Below are positions 19,199 to 33,604 of a stretch of 64,000 nucleotides of DNA, one piece after another. Source of the DNA: Lactobacillus sp. CBA3606. Lineage in GTDB: Bacteria; Bacillota; Bacilli; Lactobacillales; Lactobacillaceae. The translations under genes were made by a program, and so were the position numbers. Numbering within the stretch: position 1 is the stretch's first letter; each line of letters starts with the position of its first letter. Below the pieces are notes generated by a model. The model was not told where the DNA came from, did not search any database, and worked only from the letters and a program-made list of their open reading frames with translations. The stretch covers positions 1,116,001 through 1,180,000 of the forward strand of contig NZ_CP027194.1 in NCBI RefSeq assembly GCF_002970935.1. Direction: 5' to 3'.

Positions 19199-20149
19199 CT
19201 AATAACCACGTGCTAAATCAACTTGATTACGACACAACGTGCCTTGAGCGTTGAATTGATCAAAATTAGCTTTAAAGATTGGAAAAACGACTGCCCTAAA
19301 ATGTGCAATCTGGCCTGAAATATGTGGCGTAATCAAAACATCGGGGCGTTGCCACAATGGATGGGCCGCTGGTAATGGTTCTGGATCAGTCACGTCTAAG
19401 GCCGCCCAACTCAATTGCTGCTGGTCTAACGCAGCCATTAAATCCGCCGTAACCACGGATGGGCCACGACCAATGTTAATGAACATTGGGTGCTGGCCTA
19501 ATTGTTGAAACCACTGGGCATTAAAAAAGTGGGCTGTCGTTGGCGTTAATGGCAGGGCGTTAACAATAAAGTTAGCCGTTGCTAAAACCGCCGCCGTAGC
19601 CGGCAATGCGACCGTTTGTGCGAAATGCGGTGCAGGATGCCCAGTTGTATTGACCCCAACAACTTGTAGCCCTAAAGCAGCTGCTTTAACCGCTAAAGAC
19701 TGACCAATCTGACCGGTCCCATAAATCAACAGCTGTTGTCCCGTCAGCGTACTCGTCGTTGTTGGTAAGTCCCACTGGTGTGCGCCAATTTGATTTTGCC
19801 AAGCAGCGTGATAGCCACGGACCACCGTGAGCATCGCTGCTAGCGCCGATTCACTGATTGCATCCGCATGAATCCCACTTGTATTAGCAACCAGTACCTC
19901 CGCCGCTTTTAGCTGTGCGAGTGGTAAATAATCAACCCCCGCTGAAATCACCTGTAAAAATTTCAAATGGACTGGTGTTTGAGCCAATAACTGTTGCAAA
20001 ATCGGATGATTGCCATACATCACTTCAACTTGCGCATATTCGGTTGGCTTTAACGTCGTGACTGTTTTAAATTGCCAAGCCGGATAAGCCTGCTGTAACT
20101 GTTCCAGTTGTGCTGTTTTAGTTGCTTGTACCATTAATGCAATTGGCAT
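19199..20149 (-). CDS. D-isomer 2-hydroxyacid dehydrogenase (NAD-binding)
   Basis: About 316 residues. The Rossmann loop is YGTGQIGQSLA, the mid-domain signature NIGRGPSVV carries the substrate Arg, the Glu is in DVTDPEPLP, and the catalytic His is in ITPHISG. It interconverts 2-oxoacids and D-2-hydroxyacids with NAD(P)H in the cytoplasm; the sequence looks closer to the glyoxylate/hydroxypyruvate reductase-like branch than to D-lactate dehydrogenase. An ATG at 20164 is in frame, but GGGGG spacing and the family N-terminus favour 20149. Confidence 0.88.
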   Translation of the reverse strand: MPIALMVQATKTAQLEQLQQAYPAWQFKTVTTLKPTEYAQVEVMYGNHPILQQLLAQTPVHLKFLQVISAGVDYLPLAQLKAAEVLVANTSGIHADAISESALAAMLTVVRGYHAAWQNQIGAHQWDLPTTTSTLTGQQLLIYGTGQIGQSLAVKAAALGLQVVGVNTTGHPAPHFAQTVALPATAAVLATANFIVNALPLTPTTAHFFNAQWFQQLGQHPMFINIGRGPSVVTADLMAALDQQQLSWAALDVTDPEPLPAAHPLWQRPDVLITPHISGQIAHFRAVVFPIFKANFDQFNAQGTLCRNQVDLARGY

Positions 20150-20180
20150 CTCTAAGGCCCCCATTTCTAAGTTTTAGAAA

Positions 20181-20208
20181 AGCACAACGTCGATAATGAC
20201 GTTGCGCT
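20181..20208 (-). terminator. Intrinsic terminator of the MapZ-like gene
   Basis: AGCGCAACGTC and GACGTTGTGCT (one G-T pair) with a 6-nt loop, followed by TTTTCT on the minus strand. Confidence 0.75.
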
Positions 20209-20225
20209 AATTGACTTAACTTTAA

Positions 20226-21860
20226 TTAATAAGTGGTTGAGTAACTATAGCCATCCGTGGTGGTACTAGTGGTATCACTACTACTTGAATTATCGCTAGA
20301 TGCATTGCTGCTACTGCTGTCAGCACTGTAGTAACTGCTGCTATCCGCAGAACTCGTCGCCGTATCATTATCACTCGTCGTGGTGTTATCCGTGGTACTT
20401 GAATACGTCGAATAACTCGAACTCGTATCTGATGAGCTTGACGATTCTGAACTTGATTCCTCACTTGATGAGCTTGAGGATGGTTCACTATAACTTGATG
20501 AACTACTTTCATTCGCAATCGATGTTTGGCGTGAGCTTTCAGCAGCGGCTGCGGCAGCTTCTGACTTCGCTAACTTCTTGCGATCAGTCTTCAACCGTGC
20601 ATAGTCGTTACGTGCTAATTGCGCTTTCGACTGATAAGCTTTCAAGTGTTTCATAACTTTATCAGCGCGACTCGTTGAAACTGAAGCCTTTAACTTATCT
20701 TTCTTATTATACAAGGCTTTAAAATCGCGATGATAACCTTGAACTGCCTTGACCGTTTTGCCTGTCGCTGATAACTTCTCTTGATACTTAGTCGTAAAAT
20801 CAGCTTTACTAGTCGCTAAATCAGTCGCCTTCAGTTGATTGTTAGCTGTCGTGATTGTTGCTGTCGTAACACCAACTTTAATGAGCTTAGCTTCATTATA
20901 CAACCCTTGATACGTGGTCCGCACTTTTAACATCTTAACTGCCGTATCATGTTGCTTTTGCAGACTAGTTTTTTCACTTGACGCTTTCAGATCATCAATC
21001 GCTGTTTGAAGTTGTGCCAACTTCGTCGTTGATGCGCTGGCGCGTAAATCACTTTGATCAGCCGTATAAATCTTTTTGACCTGCGCTTCAGCATTACTTT
21101 TAGCTTGCGATTGCATGGTTTTAGCATTGGTCCACATATACATAGACCCCACTGCGGCCACAATTAAAATAACGACCCCTAACAACATCAAGCGCCGATT
21201 ACGTCGCCGCCGTTGTGGTTTTTGATGGGGCCTGTTCGAGTTAGGCTTGGCCTTCTTCTTCAAATGCGGATTTTCATCATTAGTTGCCGCCGCACTAACT
21301 GGCGTTTCACCATGGCGGGCCATCCGTGACATCGTTTCTGAATCATCAGTCGTGCGGTCCGTGCGTGGGGCAGCACTGCCGGCATTTGGCTGTTGATCAC
21401 CATATAACGCTTCACGTGACAATGGCAACTCAGGCTGGGCGTCGTTATTCGTCCGCGCCTTTTCAATCGCTTGAACCGAAATAACTGGTTGGTCATGCGG
21501 TGTGGCTGCGCTAGTTGCCGTTGATTGCGGTTGTTGCGCCGTAGCACTCGTCACTGTAGTCGTGGCTGAACTTGGCGTCGTGTCATCAACGGCCGTAGCT
21601 GATTGTGGCTGCCGATCCAAGTCAGGATCAATAACTGATTTGGAGACGGGCGCTGCCGCCGTTGAAGTTTCAGGCTGCGCTTGATCGACATCAATAGTTG
21701 CTGCCGACTTGGCAGTCGCAGATTTCGCCGCTGCACTATCCTTTAAATCATAAGCCAACGGAATTTGTTCATTAGCCTGACTATCATCATCTGGTAGTGG
21801 CTCTGTAATTGAGTTCCATAGTCGTTTCCCAAGTCGACCTTTATTTTCTTTCTTTGCCAT
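20226..21860 (-). CDS. Single-pass membrane protein with MapZ-like extracellular region
   Basis: 544 residues. A long, low-complexity Ala/Thr/Gln/Asp-rich cytoplasmic part (to about 215) leads to a basic stretch RRRRNRR and one membrane segment (about 225-245). An extracellular helical region (about 250-440) follows, with two repeats of the pattern KIYTADQSDLRAS..T..LAQLQTAI, and a Ser-rich tail (about 455-544). This plan, and the resemblance to MapZ extracellular repeats, suggests a MapZ/LocZ-type cell-division site protein that binds FtsZ inside and the wall outside. Resemblance is by eye, so the role is tentative. Single-gene unit. Confidence 0.6.
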   Translation of the reverse strand: MAKKENKGRLGKRLWNSITEPLPDDDSQANEQIPLAYDLKDSAAAKSATAKSAATIDVDQAQPETSTAAAPVSKSVIDPDLDRQPQSATAVDDTTPSSATTTVTSATAQQPQSTATSAATPHDQPVISVQAIEKARTNNDAQPELPLSREALYGDQQPNAGSAAPRTDRTTDDSETMSRMARHGETPVSAAATNDENPHLKKKAKPNSNRPHQKPQRRRRNRRLMLLGVVILIVAAVGSMYMWTNAKTMQSQAKSNAEAQVKKIYTADQSDLRASASTTKLAQLQTAIDDLKASSEKTSLQKQHDTAVKMLKVRTTYQGLYNEAKLIKVGVTTATITTANNQLKATDLATSKADFTTKYQEKLSATGKTVKAVQGYHRDFKALYNKKDKLKASVSTSRADKVMKHLKAYQSKAQLARNDYARLKTDRKKLAKSEAAAAAAESSRQTSIANESSSSSYSEPSSSSSSEESSSESSSSSDTSSSYSTYSSTTDNTTTSDNDTATSSADSSSYYSADSSSSNASSDNSSSSDTTSTTTDGYSYSTTY

Positions 21861-22082
21861 TTAATTACCCCTAGCTTGCTTCATTTTTAGTTTATGATTA
21901 AAATTCTGATTAATACGTGTTGATTGGAATCAACCGCCGTTTAATAATTAAATTATAGCATGGAATTAGCTTGCGAGAAACCGCTCTCGCAACGGTTTTG
22001 AGAATAATCCAGCCGTGACTTAATTTTAGATTAAAATTCTGTTATAATCGCCTTATTAACATTTTGAAAGCGAGGGATTCCG

Positions 22083-22535
22083 ATGGCAACTGCTAAAGTC
22101 ATTTTTGCAACGATTACCGGTAACAATGAAGATGTTGCCGACGTCATTACTGAAAAGTTCGAAAACTTAGGCGTCACGGTCACGAAAGAAGAAATCTCAC
22201 AGGCCGATGCCAGTGAATTTGAGTCCGTTGATATTGCCGTAGTTGTACCTTACACCTATGATGAGGGCGCACTTCCTGAAGAAGGACTTGATTTTTACGA
22301 TGACCTGCAAGCCCTAGACCTAACTGGCAAAATCTACGGTTGTGCGGGTTCTGGAGATACTTTTTATGAAGACGACTATTGCCGGGCTGTCACTGACTTT
22401 AGTCATGCCTTTAAGTCAACTGGGGCAACTCAAGGCGCCGCTGACGTTTTCGTCAATCTAGCACCGGCGGGCGAAGATTTAACTCATTTAGACGCCTTTG
22501 TTGAACAGCTCGTCCAAACGCAACAAAAAAACTAG
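22083..22535 (+). CDS. Flavodoxin
   Basis: 150 residues, a short-chain flavodoxin. The FMN phosphate loop is ATITGNNEDVA at the N-terminus, with the isoalloxazine-flanking segments PYTYDEGALPE and CAGSGDTFYEDDYC. It is a cytoplasmic low-potential electron carrier; the acidic composition fits. A GAGGG site precedes the ATG. It is a single-gene unit ending at a shared terminator. Confidence 0.93.
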   Translation: MATAKVIFATITGNNEDVADVITEKFENLGVTVTKEEISQADASEFESVDIAVVVPYTYDEGALPEEGLDFYDDLQALDLTGKIYGCAGSGDTFYEDDYCRAVTDFSHAFKSTGATQGAADVFVNLAPAGEDLTHLDAFVEQLVQTQQKN

Positions 22536-22556
22536 ACCACTGGCCTAGTTTTTTTT
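22525..22556. terminator. Bidirectional intrinsic terminator
   Basis: A/T-flanked hairpin with AAACTAG and CTAGTTT arms between the flavodoxin and the convergent small membrane protein. It overlaps the 3' ends of both genes. Confidence 0.8.
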
Positions 22557-22769
22557 ATGCCGTTTTAACAACCGTTGTCGAAAATAGTTATAACCAACTT
22601 CGACTAAGAAGAATAACCCAGTAATGCCTACAATATTAATTAGATACTCGCCAAGCTGGTAGCCGAGCTTAGCTCCCCAGACGTCATAGGGACCTTGAAT
22701 TAATAAGAAGTAAATTGCTAAAGTTTGAATAATATAACTGGTATGTCGCCAGATTGACTGCCATTTCAT
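22545..22769 (-). CDS. Small two-helix membrane protein
   Basis: 74 residues with two hydrophobic segments (about residues 10-22 and 38-58) and a basic end (RQRLLKRHKKN). I do not recognise the family. A textbook GGAGGGCAAACG before the ATG and the placement 12 bp after the AroD-like gene make it a real gene, likely co-transcribed with that gene. Function unknown. Confidence 0.7.
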   Translation of the reverse strand: MKWQSIWRHTSYIIQTLAIYFLLIQGPYDVWGAKLGYQLGEYLINIVGITGLFFLVEVGYNYFRQRLLKRHKKN

Positions 22770-22781
22770 CGTTTGCCCTCC

Positions 22782-23522
22782 TTAAACGGTCGCTAATGTT
22801 TGTAAAGTTTGCTTTAACTGACTGACTGATAATTGACCATGTTCACCCACATGACCCACGCGTCCAAAAGTAACCGCTGACCCCATCAATTGACCACAGA
22901 CGCCACTATAACGACCTAAGCTACCGCTAGCCGTTGCAATTAAAGGCACGTCTAGGAGTTGATTGGCTTGCGTCGTCGCTGCCATTAAGGTCACCACATC
23001 GAGCGCCTGCGTTGGTTGGATCACCAATCGAATGACATCAGCACCCGCCACCGCCATGGTCTGATAACTAGCCACTAGTTCAGCTAGTGATGGTAGCGGA
23101 CCAGTGATCGTTTGACTTAAAATCAACCGAATCTGATGTGTCCGCATTTGGGTAACTAATGGCCCAAATTGTGGCGCTTGCAAATAGCGGCTTTCAACGT
23201 CAATTGCCGCGACTGCTCGGTTATTAACTAAAGTCTGATAAAGCTGATAATACGCAGTCGGCGTTAGTGCCGACCCTCGTAAAGTGGCAATTACTGGAAT
23301 TGTACCCAATAGTTGCTGCAACTGCACCGCTGTATTAATTAGTTCAGCTCGATTATCTAATTCCTGATAGGTATCTAAGCGCCATTCAACGATTTGCGCT
23401 GCTGAACTTAAGACCTGCGCAGCTTGACCCAATAACGTTTGCCGCTTTGCCCCCGTCAGTGTCACACCAATCTTGGGCATGCCTGGCGCTAACACTACAC
23501 TACCAATCGCTACATTCTTCAA
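22782..23522 (-). CDS. aroD: Type I 3-dehydroquinate dehydratase homologue lacking catalytic His and Lys
   Basis: 246 residues with the type I dehydroquinase frame: PKIGVTLTG, the substrate-binding VEWRLD (R48), an Arg at 82, LGRYSGVCGQLMGSAVTFG, and a late GQLSVSQL. Where the family has the catalytic His (SNHDF in the Salmonella enzyme) this protein has SQTIT (Thr138), and where it has the Schiff-base Lys (ADIPKIAVMP) it has ADVIRLVIQP (Arg165). Dehydration of 3-dehydroquinate by the normal mechanism is therefore unlikely; binding may persist. A true AroD should exist elsewhere if the shikimate pathway is complete. It is followed by a small membrane protein gene. Confidence 0.8.
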   Translation of the reverse strand: MKNVAIGSVVLAPGMPKIGVTLTGAKRQTLLGQAAQVLSSAAQIVEWRLDTYQELDNRAELINTAVQLQQLLGTIPVIATLRGSALTPTAYYQLYQTLVNNRAVAAIDVESRYLQAPQFGPLVTQMRTHQIRLILSQTITGPLPSLAELVASYQTMAVAGADVIRLVIQPTQALDVVTLMAATTQANQLLDVPLIATASGSLGRYSGVCGQLMGSAVTFGRVGHVGEHGQLSVSQLKQTLQTLATV

Positions 23523-23761
23523 TCCCTTTACCCCACCTTCGCCATCGTCAGTTCAAATGGCTCTATCACTAATTATTATACACTTTCCATTTAGGTCCAA
23601 CCGTCCCGCTTAATAATAGCAAAATTTCGCTAAGCTAACAGCTAATCTTCATTTTTAAAATCAAATTATCAACTACTTTTAATATTAAAAAAATAAAGTT
23701 GTCAACGCTTCCATTTCCATCATATAATTAGTCGTATTCAGACTAAAAAAGGAGCCCAACT

Positions 23762-25195
23762 ATGAAAACAGAGAAACAACTGCGCTGGTCCAATATTGCA
23801 CTAATTGCATTCGTGGCCGTATGGGGCTTAGGTAACGTAGTTAATAACTTTGCGTTACAAGGCTTATCGGTCGTCACATCTTGGATTTTAATTATGATTA
23901 TTTACTTCGTTCCCTACACCTTAATCGTTGGTCAATTAGGATCAACTTTTAAAGAAGCCGAAGGTGGGGTGTCCTCCTGGATTCGAGCAACTAGTACTAA
24001 GCGCCTTGCTTACTACGCAGCTTGGACCTATTGGATCGTTCACATTCCTTATTTGGCCCAAAAACCACAGGGGATTTTGATTGCCTTTAGTTGGTTATTC
24101 AGAGGAAACGGTAATTTTGTTAACAGCACCCCGGCGATTGTCGTCCAAAGTATTTGTTTAGTGCTATTCTTATTCTTCCTTTGGATTGCCTCCCTCGGTT
24201 TAACAACCCTTAAACGCATTGGTAGTGTGGCTGGGACTGGGATGTTCATCATGTCAATCTTGTTCATTATTCTTGCGGTCTCAGCACCATTGATGACTAA
24301 GTCAACAGTTCAAACACCGGACATGTTATCTTTCAAGTCTTATCTACCGAAATTTGATTTTGCTTATTTCACAACTGTCTCAATGTTAGTCTTTGCGGTT
24401 GGTGGTTCCGAAAAAATTTCGCCATACGTTAATAAGACTAAAAATCCAGGCCGCGAATTTCCACTTGGCATGTTAGTGCTAGCTGGAATGGTTGCCGTTT
24501 GTGCCCTACTAGGATCATTTGCGATGGGGATTCTCTTCAACGCTAAACATATTCCTTCAGATTTGATGGCCAATGGTGCTTACTACGCGTTCCAACGGCT
24601 TGGTTCCTTCTACCATGTTGGCAATCTCTTTATGATTCTATATGCCATTGCCAATGTCTTGGCTCAAGTTTCGGCGTTAGCCTTCTCAATTGATGCGCCT
24701 TTAAAGATTTTATTAGGTGACGCTGATCCTGAATTCATTCCGAAAAAATTAAGTAAAATGAATAAGAAAGATGTGCCGGTAAACGGCTACATCATGACTG
24801 GTGTTTTAGTTAGTATTTTAATTATCATTCCTGCTTTAGGGATTGGTAATATGAATGAGTTATATAACTGGTTACTAAACCTAAATTCCGTCGTCATGCC
24901 AATGCGTTACCTCTGGGTCTTCTTAGCTTATATCTTATTAAATCAACATTTAAAAGAGTTTAAGAGTGATTACATGTTCTTAAAGAATCCAATGGTTGGT
25001 AAGCTAGTTGGGGCTTGGTGCTTCTTATTCACCGCCTTCGCTTGTATCTTAGGGATGGTGCCTAAGACAACCTCACTAGCTGACAATCCTAGTAGCTGGT
25101 GGTTCCAATTATCCTTAAACATTGCAACTCCGATTATCTTTGTCGCCTTAGGCATGATTCTCCCAATGATTGCCCGTCGTCATCGGACTGCTTAA
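23762..25195 (+). CDS. APC-family amino acid permease
   Basis: 477 residues with about twelve hydrophobic segments. The N-terminal part (FVAVWGLGNVVNNFALQGL, then EGGVSSWIRA) is that of the glutamate:GABA-antiporter-like/YjeM branch of APC permeases. It imports or exchanges an amino acid across the membrane; the substrate is not readable. AAAGGAG precedes the ATG. A weak cre-like sequence lies at 23700-23713. A terminator follows, and then a MarR gene in the same direction. Confidence 0.9.
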   Translation: MKTEKQLRWSNIALIAFVAVWGLGNVVNNFALQGLSVVTSWILIMIIYFVPYTLIVGQLGSTFKEAEGGVSSWIRATSTKRLAYYAAWTYWIVHIPYLAQKPQGILIAFSWLFRGNGNFVNSTPAIVVQSICLVLFLFFLWIASLGLTTLKRIGSVAGTGMFIMSILFIILAVSAPLMTKSTVQTPDMLSFKSYLPKFDFAYFTTVSMLVFAVGGSEKISPYVNKTKNPGREFPLGMLVLAGMVAVCALLGSFAMGILFNAKHIPSDLMANGAYYAFQRLGSFYHVGNLFMILYAIANVLAQVSALAFSIDAPLKILLGDADPEFIPKKLSKMNKKDVPVNGYIMTGVLVSILIIIPALGIGNMNELYNWLLNLNSVVMPMRYLWVFLAYILLNQHLKEFKSDYMFLKNPMVGKLVGAWCFLFTAFACILGMVPKTTSLADNPSSWWFQLSLNIATPIIFVALGMILPMIARRHRTA

Positions 25196-25207
25196 TATCG
25201 AGCACCC

Positions 25208-25243
25208 AAAAGACTGAGTCATTAACTGGCTCAGCCTTTTTTT
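25208..25243 (+). terminator. Intrinsic terminator of the permease gene
   Basis: CTGAG and CTCAG arms extended by neighbouring pairs, with a run of seven T. Confidence 0.75.
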
Positions 25244-25414
25244 ATCCCTTTATTACTCCTCAATAGTGGTCAAAGACGATTAAAAGTTCAATTTTTATAC
25301 TTTAATTCGATTTAGGTTTATTATCTTTATGTAGATATAGATTGACTAATGCTATAATTAATTTCATACAATTAATTACTTAACCAAGGACTTCGACTAT
25401 AGGGAGGATACAGA

Positions 25415-25867
25415 ATGAACGGATCGCCTAAAATGCTAGATGATTTTCTAAAATATTATGCTACCGTCTTCAATTATATGGATGACTACATCGCTGAACC
25501 AATCAATCGCTATCATCTCACGTTTGACGCTTTTTTAATTATGCATGAAATAGGCACTAGCACAACGCCCTTATTACTCATGGACATTGCGGAAAGCCAC
25601 CACGTCTCTCGTAGTGCCATTTCACGTCAAATTAGCATTCTATTGAAATACAACTATGTTTATCAGGTTGCTAAACCAACTGACCGTCGTAAAAAGATTT
25701 TATTACTAACTGAACAAGGCCAGCGTATTGATCAGCAGCTGATTGATGATCTCCAAGATATCTTTGATGTCTGGGTCAATCGGTTAGGTGCTGAGCGCGT
25801 TGTTTCAATGCTGGCGCTCCTACACGACTTTAATCAAGAAGTTATTCAGCCACAACACAAACGTTAG
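25415..25867 (+). CDS. MarR-family transcriptional regulator
   Basis: 150 residues, a winged-helix dimer: a recognition helix in HHVSRSAISRQISILLKYNYV, the wing at KPTDRRKKILLLT, and flanking dimerisation helices. The ATG follows GGGAGG, and a TGC-extended TATAAT lies upstream. No divergent partner exists; the target may be the permease before it, or distant genes. Confidence 0.9.
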   Translation: MNGSPKMLDDFLKYYATVFNYMDDYIAEPINRYHLTFDAFLIMHEIGTSTTPLLLMDIAESHHVSRSAISRQISILLKYNYVYQVAKPTDRRKKILLLTEQGQRIDQQLIDDLQDIFDVWVNRLGAERVVSMLALLHDFNQEVIQPQHKR

Positions 25868-25910
25868 GACAACGTGCTAACTGCCCATTGTCGTTGACGC
25901 TAACACTTTC

Positions 25911-26011
25911 AAAAAAATAAGCGAGTCACAATCGTGAACACCGCCAGTAATCCTTTCCTGATGTTACTGGCTAGGATACCGTACAAGTCACGATTAAGAC
26001 CCGCTTATTTT
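25911..26011 (-). other. Large structured terminator downstream of tRNA-Thr
   Basis: Three nested complementary segments: AAAATAAGCG/CGCTTATTTT (25914-25923, 26002-26011), AATCGTGA/TCACGATT (25930-25937, 25988-25995) and GCCAGTAA/TTACTGGC (25943-25950, 25964-25971). On the minus strand it ends in a run of seven T, so it terminates the tRNA transcript. It is far larger than an ordinary terminator and might itself be a stable RNA. Confidence 0.6.
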
Positions 26012-26040
26012 ATTGTCTCGTTGGCAATGGCGCCATTAAC

Positions 26041-26113
26041 AGCCGTTTAGCAGATTTGAACTGCCGACCTCTTCCTTACCATGGAAGTGCTCTACCTGCT
26101 GAGCTAAAACGGC
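26041..26113 (-). tRNA. tRNA-Thr (GGT)
   Basis: 73 nt. Acceptor arms GCCGTTT/AAACGGC with discriminator T, D-arm AGCTC..GAGC, anticodon stem CTTCC/GGAAG with loop ATGGTAA (anticodon GGT), and a T-arm with GTTCAAATC. CCA is not encoded. It lies downstream of the 5S gene, beyond the rRNA terminator, and has its own promoter. Confidence 0.93.
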
Positions 26114-26129
26114 AAAATCCCTCTTGAAT

Positions 26130-26158
26130 AGTATACCAAAGCTTAAATTCAATTGTAA
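26130..26158 (-). promoter_or_regulatory. Promoter of tRNA-Thr
   Basis: TTACAA (26153-26158) and an extended TGG-TATACT (26130-26135) on the minus strand with a 17-bp spacer, about 17 bp before the tRNA. Confidence 0.7.
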
Positions 26159-26168
26159 TCCTAAGCAT

Positions 26169-26199
26169 AAAAAAAGGAACCGAATTAATCGATTCCTTC
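26169..26199 (-). terminator. rRNA operon terminator
   Basis: GGAATCGA and TCGGTTCC (one G-T pair) with a short loop and a run of seven T on the minus strand, directly after the 5S gene. Confidence 0.85.
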
Positions 26200-26201
26200 G
26201 T

Positions 26202-26320
26202 TTGCATGGCAACGTCCTACCCTCGCAGGGAGCGATCCCCCAACTACTCTCGGCGCTAAGAAGCTTAACTTCTGTGTTCGACATGGGAACAGGTGTATCC
26301 TTCTTGCCATCGTCGCCACA
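26202..26320 (-). rRNA. rrf: 5S ribosomal RNA
   Basis: About 119 nt. Conserved 5S segments are visible on the minus strand: GGATACACCTGTTCCCAT, CCGAACACAGAAGTTAAGC-type (here with TCGAACACAG), and GCGAGGGTAGGACGTTGCC near the 3' end. It is the last gene of the rRNA operon. Confidence 0.93.
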
Positions 26321-26346
26321 CTATTGAGAAACTTGTGCTCTCAAAA

Positions 26347-29430
<3,084 letters not shown>

Positions 29431-29433
<3 letters not shown>

Positions 29434-29449
29434 TTTTCAAAGAACAAGT
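29431..29449 (-). promoter_or_regulatory. boxA-like antitermination element before 23S
   Basis: The minus strand reads GTTCTTTGAAAACTAGA. A related TTTGAAAACTGAAC lies in the 16S leader (31224-31242). Such boxA elements recruit NusB/S10 during rRNA transcription. Confidence 0.5.
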
Positions 29450-29467
29450 TTGAGAGTTAGACCTCTC

Positions 29468-31233
<1,766 letters not shown>

Positions 31234-31277
31234 CAAAGGTCTAATTTGTTGGTTGATTACCTCAACGCAACTTAATT

Positions 31278-31306
31278 ATCTTAACATCTTGATTTCTTTT
31301 TGTCAA
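31278..31306 (-). promoter_or_regulatory. rRNA promoter P1 (nearest 16S)
   Basis: TTGACA and TAAGAT on the minus strand with a 17-bp spacer. Confidence 0.85.
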
Positions 31307-31368
31307 CTTCTTTTTTTAATAGAATTAACAATCTCAAGCTGTTTGTTGCCGTTGTGACAACAGGAATA

Positions 31369-31397
31369 ATCATATCAATTACTGAAGCAGTTGTCAA
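31369..31397 (-). promoter_or_regulatory. rRNA promoter P2
   Basis: TTGACA and TATGAT on the minus strand with a 17-bp spacer, 91 bp upstream of P1. Confidence 0.87.
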
Positions 31398-31452
31398 CAA
31401 CTAATTTCAATATTTTTTTGTATTCCTTGTCGCCGTAGCAGCAACGTGTACT

Positions 31453-31481
31453 AATATACCAACCACAGCTGAAACTGTCAA
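31453..31481 (-). promoter_or_regulatory. rRNA promoter P3
   Basis: TTGACA and TATATT on the minus strand with a 17-bp spacer, 84 bp upstream of P2. Confidence 0.82.
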
Positions 31482-31618
31482 CAACTTTTTACTTCTTTTT
31501 TCAAAAAGGTGAAAAAAGCAGACAACATGGTCATCTATTTTCATGACATTGGCCAGCGTCATCGCCTTTTTTCACGCTGCCGTTCACCAACTAATCGCTA
31601 AAGCTTCTATATAAAGAC

Positions 31619-31651
31619 ATAAAAAACGACTACCATTTAACTGATAGTCGT
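31619..31651 (-). terminator. Intrinsic terminator of the ECF S-component gene
   Basis: ACGACTATCA and TGGTAGTCGT arms followed by six T on the minus strand. Confidence 0.85.
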
Positions 31652-31668
31652 GACCCGCTCTGATGACT

Positions 31669-32181
31669 TTAATTAAATTGCGTTTTAACGCGGTCCTTAA
31701 GCCGTAACACAATCGGATAGGCAATTGCACCACCAACCACCGCTTGAATCGCATTGGTCGGCACGCCGGCTAAACCGGTTGGCAACGCATATAAAATAGT
31801 ATCGGAAATAAAATACCCGATGACCATGACGACACCACCAATCGCAATCGCCATGAATTGACGCCCCTTGGATTGATCAGCCCCAAACTGACCAACTAAA
31901 AAGCCCTCTAACCCATGCACGATGAGCGAAAATAGCATGTATTGCGAATAACCAGACAACAAGTCTAATAAGAACCCGCTGGCACCGCCAACAATTGCAC
32001 CGCCGCGACGACCGAACAATAAGGCCGCAATGAAAATTCCAGCATCACATAAGTTGATGTTACCATGCGTCATTGGTACTGGAATAATAAACCACATCGA
32101 AATGACAACTGTTACCGCAATCAGCAAGCCCAACATTGCAACTAAACGTGTCGAAAACTTAGTTTGCTTCTTCCCTGACAT
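31669..32181 (-). CDS. ECF transporter S component (PF07155-like)
   Basis: 170 residues with about five or six hydrophobic segments. The block NINLCDAGIFIAALLFGRRGG followed by VGGASGFLLDLLSGY and HGLEGFLVG is typical of one S-component group that includes predicted thiamine-precursor (HmpT-like) transporters. It would bind a vitamin-type substrate and share the EcfAA'T energising module encoded elsewhere. The substrate is not readable. It is a single-gene unit with its own terminator. Confidence 0.85.
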   Translation of the reverse strand: MSGKKQTKFSTRLVAMLGLLIAVTVVISMWFIIPVPMTHGNINLCDAGIFIAALLFGRRGGAIVGGASGFLLDLLSGYSQYMLFSLIVHGLEGFLVGQFGADQSKGRQFMAIAIGGVVMVIGYFISDTILYALPTGLAGVPTNAIQAVVGGAIAYPIVLRLKDRVKTQFN

Positions 32182-32293
32182 CTCTAAACCATCCCCTCTA
32201 GTAGCCGTACTTAACCTAACAATGTGTATTCTCTAATCTAGCTCTCATTTTACTACAATTATTTGAAAATGCTACTACGGGTGCGACTGACAA

Positions 32294-32330
32294 ACAAAAA
32301 TCTGGCTACCAACTAGTGGCGTCAGATTTT
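32294..32330 (-). terminator. Intrinsic terminator of tyrS
   Basis: AAAATCTG and CAGATTTT arms with an inner GCCAC/GTAGC-like stem and a T-rich tail on the minus strand. Confidence 0.8.
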
Positions 32331-32347
32331 CATCAGTCTTACTATTA

Positions 32348-33604
32348 TTATTTAACGCGTGCTAAGAAGTACCGCTTCTTCCCTCGACGTACAATCACGA
32401 ATTTGCCATCAAAAGCAGTCGCTGGATCAATCACAGCATCAACATCCGTAATTTTCTCACCATTAATGCGAATTGCGCCATTTTTTAAATCTTCACGAGC
32501 TTGACGTCGCGAAGGTTCAAACTTGGTTGCATCAACTAGCCATAGCACAATATTCTGCTTTTCGACTGACACTTCAGCTGAAGGTACGCCTTTAAATCCT
32601 TGTTCAATCTCAGCCACATTCAAGTTTTGAACATCACCAGTGAATAAGGCGTTGGTGATATTTTGTGCTTCTGCAACGGCCGCTTTCCCATGCACAAATT
32701 CAGTGACACATTCTGCTAACCGCCGTTGGGCTTCCCGCTTACCAGGTGCCAACTTGACCTTTTCAGCTAAATCATCAATTTCAGCATGACTTAAGAATGT
32801 GAAATACTTCAAATATTTAACGACATCCCGGTCATCTTGGTTAATCCAAAATTGGTAAAATTCATAAGGTGACGTGCGTTCTGGATCTAGCCAAACGGCC
32901 CCACCCGCAGTCTTACCGAATTTTGTCCCATCTGCTTTGAGCAATAGTGGAATCGTCAAGCCATAGACTTTGGTTTCATTGCCTTCTAACCGATGAATCA
33001 GATCCGTTCCGGCCGTGATATTCCCCCATTGATCAGCACCACCAATTTGTAATTGGACGTGGGCTTCACGGTATAAATGTAAGAAATCAACCGATTGTAG
33101 GATTTGGTAGGTAAATTCGGTATACGAAATTCCAACTTCTAGCCGACTAGCAACGACTTCTTTATTCAGCATCGTATTCACACTAAATAACTTGCCGTAA
33201 TCCCGCAAAAAGTCGAGCAATGAGATTTTAGATAACCAGTCATAATTATTTACAATCGTAAAGTTATCATCATTACCAAACAACTTGTGCATTTGCGCAC
33301 TCAAAGCCGCTTCATTATGGTTAACTTGCGCCATCGTTTGTAAAACCCGTTCTGAATTCTTACCGGATGGGTCCCCAATGGCACCCGTCCCACCACCAAC
33401 TAACACATAAGGATGATGACCAGCTAACTGGAACCGTTTCAAAATCATAAACGGAATCAAATGGCCGATATGCATGCTATCACCAGTTGGATCAATCCCA
33501 CAATATAACGCCACAGCTTCATTAGTTGCGAGTTCTTTTAATCCAGCTTCATCCGTTTGCTGATTAATCGCACCACGCCATTTTAAATCATCAATAATAT
33601 TCAT
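32348..33604 (-). CDS. tyrS: Tyrosyl-tRNA synthetase
   Basis: 418 residues, class I synthetase that charges tRNA-Tyr. HIGHLIPF is the HIGH motif, KFGKT the KMSKS-equivalent, and the tyrosine-binding GGADQWGNI is intact. A C-terminal S4-like RNA-binding domain lies at about 350-418. GGAGG precedes the ATG. A full T-box leader with a Tyr codon specifier lies upstream, so expression responds to uncharged tRNA-Tyr. Confidence 0.97.
   Translation of the reverse strand: MNIIDDLKWRGAINQQTDEAGLKELATNEAVALYCGIDPTGDSMHIGHLIPFMILKRFQLAGHHPYVLVGGGTGAIGDPSGKNSERVLQTMAQVNHNEAALSAQMHKLFGNDDNFTIVNNYDWLSKISLLDFLRDYGKLFSVNTMLNKEVVASRLEVGISYTEFTYQILQSVDFLHLYREAHVQLQIGGADQWGNITAGTDLIHRLEGNETKVYGLTIPLLLKADGTKFGKTAGGAVWLDPERTSPYEFYQFWINQDDRDVVKYLKYFTFLSHAEIDDLAEKVKLAPGKREAQRRLAECVTEFVHGKAAVAEAQNITNALFTGDVQNLNVAEIEQGFKGVPSAEVSVEKQNIVLWLVDATKFEPSRRQAREDLKNGAIRINGEKITDVDAVIDPATAFDGKFVIVRRGKKRYFLARVK

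Follow-up and report, generated by a model that had tools for sequence, protein, structure and literature searches.

The AroD-like gene at positions 22782-23522 of the window (the whole stretch of 64,000 nucleotides analysed here) encodes a protein that is homologous in fold to the type I dehydroquinases (DHQases) and has lost both of their catalytic residues. The catalytic pair is absent from all 21 orthologues in the Lactiplantibacillus genomes searched, the gene is under purifying selection, the pattern of conservation seen in canonical AroD is inverted, and a gene for a small membrane protein adjoins it in every one of these genomes. The combination of catalytic loss, selection and a membrane-protein neighbour suggests that an enzyme fold has been recycled for a new, probably protein-binding, job. 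In the specific form favoured here, which we hold at slightly less than even confidence, the fold serves as a protein-binding scaffold that is probably docked to the adjoining membrane protein; the main rival of this reading is a pseudoenzyme that senses a new ligand. The features on which the analysis rests are the following.

22782..23522, minus strand: gene for the AroD-like protein, a probable pseudoenzyme (246 aa, TTG start at 23522)
22545..22769, minus strand: gene for a 74-aa membrane protein, starting 12 bases past the AroD-like stop codon
22525..22555, minus strand: terminator-like hairpin of 14 pairs with a T-run, directly after the 74-aa gene
23612..23623, minus strand: extended -10-like motif TTTGCTATTATT, upstream of the AroD-like gene
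23762..25195, plus strand: divergent amino acid permease gene (AA_permease_2), adjoining the pair in 20/21 genomes; context, and a candidate only

The initial annotation had described a type I dehydroquinase frame with the catalytic residues replaced, and the frame is borne out, with correct coordinates; the gene lies, however, on the minus strand. PF01487 matches the 246-aa open frame over nearly its full length (residues 20-240) at 138.5 bits, against a cut-off of 22.2 (E 4.9e-40), and the AF2 model (pLDDT 81.8, pTM 0.81), which is weak in the lid and at the C-terminus (pLDDT <50 at 223-237 and 243-246), is a TIM barrel whose top Foldseek matches in the PDB are type I DHQases (4h3d_B, TMq 0.86, E 1.8e-20; 1qfe_A, TMq 0.84). 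The window protein thus belongs to the family by sequence and fold, and shares the fold of AroD (PF01487, TIGR01093; 1QFE, 4H3D) over its full length; it differs from AroD in having lost His143, Lys170, Arg213 and Glu86, in scoring below the cut-off of the curated aroD equivalog model TIGR01093 (110.5 bits against 139.3), and in having an adjoining membrane-protein gene. A second, intact aroD, a search for which had been proposed as a check, is present in the same genome: it scores 233.9 bits, compared with 138.4 for the window gene, has His143, Lys170 and Arg213, and encodes a protein 33% identical to the window protein. This canonical aroD is flanked by genes for an MFS transporter and an ApbE-like FMN transferase (L001:487-3448), away from aro genes, surroundings that may point to the uptake and use of quinate or shikimate. 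No aro genes were found among the neighbours of the AroD-like gene that were examined, and a search of positions 20000-33000 for RNA elements at gathering scores returned nothing beyond rRNA genes and one tRNA. The AroD1 named in a transcriptome paper on L. plantarum (PMC4895336), as far as the part of that source consulted allows, may be either of the two AroD copies.

The pocket was compared at 13 active-site positions in Salmonella numbering, with S. Typhi AroD as the alignment reference and with a canonical set of 20 AroD sequences from 19 genomes of Lactiplantibacillus, in all 20 of which the 13 positions are invariant. In the window protein Thr138 stands at the position of the catalytic His143 and Arg165 at that of the Schiff-base Lys170, as had been proposed, and Gly207 stands at Arg213; Glu86 is replaced by Leu (a gap in another alignment), Ser232 by Gly and Ala233 by Glu, and Met203 and Met205 are likewise gone. 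What a type I DHQase requires as an enzyme is therefore missing from the catalytic pair through Arg213, Glu86 and the lid residues Ser232 and Ala233 to the TIGR01093 cut-off. The loss of the catalytic pair is common to relatives: His143 and Lys170 are absent from 21/21 orthologues, with Thr and Arg standing there in 18 each, and the Arg213 position is occupied by Ser, Ala or Gly in all 21. Nowhere in the active site do the 21 orthologues share a conserved replacement Lys or His, a point on which the pseudoenzyme claim had been made to depend; there is no conserved His column, and the Lys columns shared by at least 11 of the 21 are K2 (17/21), K17, which starts strand 1 and is invariant also in canonical AroD, and K237, which lies in helix 8.

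The further claim that the binding residues are kept holds only for part of the pocket of the window protein, which does have EWR at 46-48, Arg82 and Gln230 (equivalent to Gln236), and has lost Arg213, Glu86, Ser232, Ala233, Met203 and Met205. Arg204, which had been counted among the retained residues, is not Arg213: it aligns with Val210, at a position that is Lys in 20/20 canonical AroDs and Arg in 20/21 paralogues. Across the 21 orthologues Arg82 is retained in 3, Glu46 in 11, Glu86 in 1, Arg48 in 19 and Gln236 in 20, and the low counts for Arg82, Glu46 and Glu86 mean that the apparent retention of binding residues is partly a coincidence of the window species.

In canonical AroD the strands and the catalytic loops are conserved and helix 2 is variable, while in the paralogue the reverse is the case, and an element that has gained in conservation is the following.

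23307..23351, minus strand: helix alpha-2, newly conserved outer element (residues 58-72, RAELINTAVQLQQLL)

The mean entropy of this helix is 0.39 in the paralogue and 1.01 in canonical AroD, and the 15-residue segment starting at residue 58 has conservation rank 5/232 in the paralogue as against 208/232 in canonical AroD, ranks which describe the inversion and do not test it, because helix 2 was selected after the data had been viewed. The 13 active-site positions, on the other hand, average 1.41 bits in the paralogue compared with 1.08 over all columns, and 91% of random sets of 13 positions are at least as conserved.

The gene is present with an open frame in 21/21 genomes, and its dN/dS is 0.018-0.098 in eight species pairs; in wider pairs dS is near saturation, and pairs with saturated dS carry no ratio (G009 was also excluded from the set used for the membrane protein). 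Mean pairwise identity is 60% among the paralogues as against 76% among the canonical copies, which together with the low dN/dS implies that the paralogue evolves faster but under constraint. Taken with the loss of the catalytic pair throughout the genus and the lack of a conserved replacement, this strongly supports, at the level of sequence, the reading of the protein as a pseudoenzyme. Outside the genus, the best score of the paralogue profile in 376 genomes of the family is 179.9 bits, compared with at least 370.7 inside it. In a tree of 50 rows (from which L073 was omitted) the paralogues cluster together (100/100), separate from the remaining rows, which fits a single origin; the place at which they join the AroD tree is unsafe because their stem is long (1.02). 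Descent from the genus's own canonical AroD was considered and set aside, with the same caution as to the joining place. Plasmid spread was likewise discarded: 57 plasmid records match the gene, all at <60% identity, and the 20 listed are named aroD. Beyond the genus, 170 family genomes have AroD matches, and of 49 loci read among the matches listed, 47 keep both catalytic residues. The remaining two, L119 (G302), with Glu for Lys170, and L125 (G076), with Tyr for His143, resemble the window protein in being degenerate AroD copies, each in a genome that has more than one AroD match, and in showing a few other changes in the pocket; they differ from it in belonging to other genera of the Lactobacillaceae and in keeping the other catalytic residue and Arg213.

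The small membrane-protein gene that had been noticed after the AroD-like gene is real, and so is its constancy as a neighbour: a gene for a protein of 71-80 aa adjoins the 3' end of the AroD-like gene in 21/21 genomes, at a spacing of -11 to +12 bases, and the pair stays together in L074-L076, where the flavodoxin gene is 4-7 kb distant, and in G008, which lacks the permease gene. In the window a Shine-Dalgarno-like AGGAGGG before the 74-aa gene runs out of the AroD-like stop codon, so that it overlaps the gene end. A promoter-like TTTG[AC]TATT[AG]T is found upstream of the AroD-like gene in 21/21 genomes, as a motif picked from the alignment afterwards. The region contains 2 terminator-like sites, compared with 1.9 expected from shuffles, the one after the pair being the hairpin of 14 pairs; in only 7/21 genomes does a crude rule recognize such a hairpin after the pair. 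Two long helices are predicted for the 74-aa protein, with modest confidence (pLDDT 72.7, pTM 0.41), and no family for it was found in Pfam, NCBIfam, PHROGs or PADLOC; nine Pfam families that match one or two of the 21 orthologues each (best E 0.0019) were discarded as chance. The profile of the membrane protein reaches at best 23.6 bits in the 376 family genomes outside the genus, as against at least 109.6 for the orthologues inside it. Searches of plasmids and viral contigs gave one plasmid match at E 4 and no confirmed viral-contig match. Another profile match in the window's genome, at 22.7 bits, was rejected because a 242-aa frame resembling, by eye, a member of an aldolase family runs opposite to it. 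The partnership that had been suggested for the two proteins is supported by the two-gene unit in 21/21 genomes, and the products may be in physical contact.

According to the scaffold reading, a dead type I DHQase fold would have been recycled, most simply once, before the radiation of the sampled Lactiplantibacillus species. Its new working surface would be the outer face around helix alpha-2 (N57-R58-A59-E60..N63-T64..Q67-L68..Q70), perhaps extending to the ends of helices 3 and 4 (T97, N100-N101-R102; L122, Q125, R127), so that the helix is a candidate contact surface. The most likely partner would be the membrane hairpin from the adjoining downstream gene. It has a short conserved segment (SIWRHT) at its N-terminus and a basic tail, both of which would lie on the cytoplasmic side; the two proteins would form a small membrane-docked complex independent of aromatic biosynthesis, and any output of this complex, such as control of the divergent permease, is a guess. 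A precedent is provided by the DHQase domain of C. albicans Aro1, which, according to the part of the source consulted (PMC9074039), is inactive through active-site substitutions and mediates homodimerization. Several observations fit the scaffold reading less well. Helix 2 could be a homodimer face, and the adjacency of the pair may have been inherited in common within a single genus. The AF2 model has low confidence in the lid and at the C-terminus, and a terminator follows the pair, by the crude rule, in a minority of genomes. Moreover, six positions of the pocket are close to fixed, and the Ser232 position is Gly in 17/21 orthologues, a degree of conservation that would be superfluous for a pure scaffold.

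These six positions provide the main argument for the chief rival, in which the mouth of the barrel has been re-cut (Thr143, Arg170 and Thr203 beside the retained Arg48, Phe225 and Gln236) so as to hold another anion, the bound state being signalled to the membrane protein. R48, T143, R170, T203, F225 and Q236 are each the same residue in 18-20 of the 21 orthologues (the counts being 19, 18, 18, 19, 18 and 20, respectively), and all six occur together in 14/21, so the pocket may have been re-cut. There is also a precedent for binding without catalysis, since the DHQase-like domain of QutR has been proposed, in the portion of the source consulted (PMC6528562), to bind dehydroquinate without turnover. 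Against this, the 13 active-site positions as a set are less conserved than the average column, and the six are not uniform across the genus: G007, G008 and G015 deviate at three or four of them, and G003, G009, G010 and G019 at one. A sensor of a new ligand is accordingly regarded as possible, with a probability clearly below that of the scaffold.

TIM barrels often change reaction, and a new activity in the old barrel, which the initial annotation had offered as an alternative, would fit the several polar residues that do not vary within the genus. A conserved catalytic set is not apparent, however: there is no His column to serve it, the conserved Lys residues are K17, which canonical AroD shares, K237 in helix 8 and the 17/21 K2, and the best-conserved stretch of the protein is an outer helix. 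New chemistry is therefore judged unlikely.

The other reading offered by the initial annotation, a sensor or regulator responding to dehydroquinate, quinate or shikimate, has to be weighed against the state of the shikimate pathway in the genus as well as that of the pocket. It draws on the family fold and on the presence of Glu46, Arg48, Arg82 and Gln236 in the window species, but Arg213, Glu86, Ser232 and Ala233 are lost in the window protein, Arg82 and Glu86 persist in 3 and 1 of the 21 orthologues, and the pocket is no more conserved than random columns. Among the 21 genomes a match to DHQ synthase is found in 8, chorismate synthase in 17, canonical AroD in 19 and the paralogue in 21, while type II DHQase is found in 0/21, which disposes of it as a replacement. 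The paralogue is thus present in 13 genomes in which a DHQ synthase match is missing (the window's own genome being one in which none was found), in 4 without chorismate synthase and in 2 without canonical AroD; several assemblies are drafts, so that single absences could be gaps. That 13 of the 21 genomes (G000-G020) give no DHQ synthase match when chorismate synthase is found in 17 is an observation in its own right, and the standard route to dehydroquinate may be closed to several of them. In G002 none of DHQ synthase, chorismate synthase, canonical AroD and type II DHQase was matched, and the gene pair is kept. The AroD-like protein is the only type I DHQase homologue found in G002 and G008; a takeover of the DHQase step by the paralogue was considered for both and rejected, G008 having Ala at His143 and Thr at Lys170, and G002 having no detected DHQ synthase or chorismate synthase. 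Retention of the pair where the pathway is not found, together with the losses in the pocket, makes a role tied to dehydroquinate unlikely, and a sensor of this kind is considered improbable.

An equally doubtful proposal is that the pair is a unit related to bacteriocin immunity, in which an immunity-like protein has been domesticated as the membrane protein and the dead AroD serves as its adaptor. It rests on the sole convincing non-orthologous relative of the membrane protein, a remotely related 75-aa membrane ORF in G016, inside the genus (29.6 bits to the membrane-protein profile). This ORF and a bacteriocin-like gene of the EntV family (E 2.1e-17) are divergently arranged at L105:1138-1983, and its hhalign score is 42.2, where 182 membrane-protein and other pieces gave no more than 19.5 and 100 shuffles no more than 23.2. 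However, the EntV-like gene, at 63.6 bits, falls short of the family cut-off (130), and the immunity function of the 75-aa ORF is itself putative; no similarity is seen in the small ORFs next to two EntV genes from other genera; and the window's membrane protein does not lie beside an EntV-family bacteriocin gene, there being no EntV match in the window's genome (G000) and matches in 6/397 family genomes, 2 of them over the cut-off. A counterpart of the G016 pair is found in G011 (L107, ~1830-2674), where the small ORF is seemingly frameshifted. The boldest combination of these elements would make the pair a receptor or immunity-type switch, present across the genus and unrelated to aromatic metabolism: the dead metabolic TIM barrel, with helix 2 as its remade surface, would dock on a two-helix membrane protein that has a bacteriocin-neighbour protein as a relative. 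This combination is quite unlikely. That the gene is a decaying, functionless duplicate is scarcely credible, for although many catalytic positions drift, the frame is open in 21/21 genomes, the gene pair is conserved, and decay is strongly disfavoured by dN/dS values of 0.018-0.098.

The general idea behind the scaffold reading, that a dead DHQase can take on another job, is known from fungi; the free-standing bacterial lineage with a membrane-protein neighbour is a new form of it. The DHQase of Aro1 is one domain of a five-domain polypeptide of the shikimate pathway, while the window protein is a separate bacterial polypeptide and the loss extends to 21/21 genomes of a genus. The fungal repressors QutR, Qa-1S and GaaX, as described in the part of the source consulted (PMC6528562), resemble the shikimate kinase, DHQase and shikimate dehydrogenase domains of AROM, and their enzyme function is presumed lost. 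These repressors are multidomain proteins that act on a Zn2Cys6 activator, whereas the window protein is a single domain of 246 aa with no such neighbour and has nothing of the multidomain AROM-type architecture (SK + DHQase + SDH). No bacterial precedent for a dead DHQase with another job was found among the titles and abstracts listed from the open-licence literature. The lineage offers a clean natural case of an enzyme fold in which catalysis has gone, purifying selection has been kept and the conserved surface has moved to an outer helix, and the constant membrane-protein neighbour makes the new role directly testable in a host that is safe to work with. It also has a practical side, since annotation based on Pfam may call the gene a second dehydroquinate dehydratase in a genus of food and probiotic bacteria, and such a misannotation would distort metabolic models, for example those of G002 and G008.

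Two minor observations concern the surroundings of the pair. In G016 (L075:8574-12201) a surface-protein-like gene, apparently split into two frames and with an LPQTG end recognized by eye, lies between the pair and the flavodoxin gene. In the window, positions 20226-21860 on the minus strand encode a 544-aa protein with no confident Pfam family and, by eye, what looks like a single membrane segment and a long tail rich in Ser; the aligned parts of its orthologues are 42-54% identical to it, and 93% in G019.
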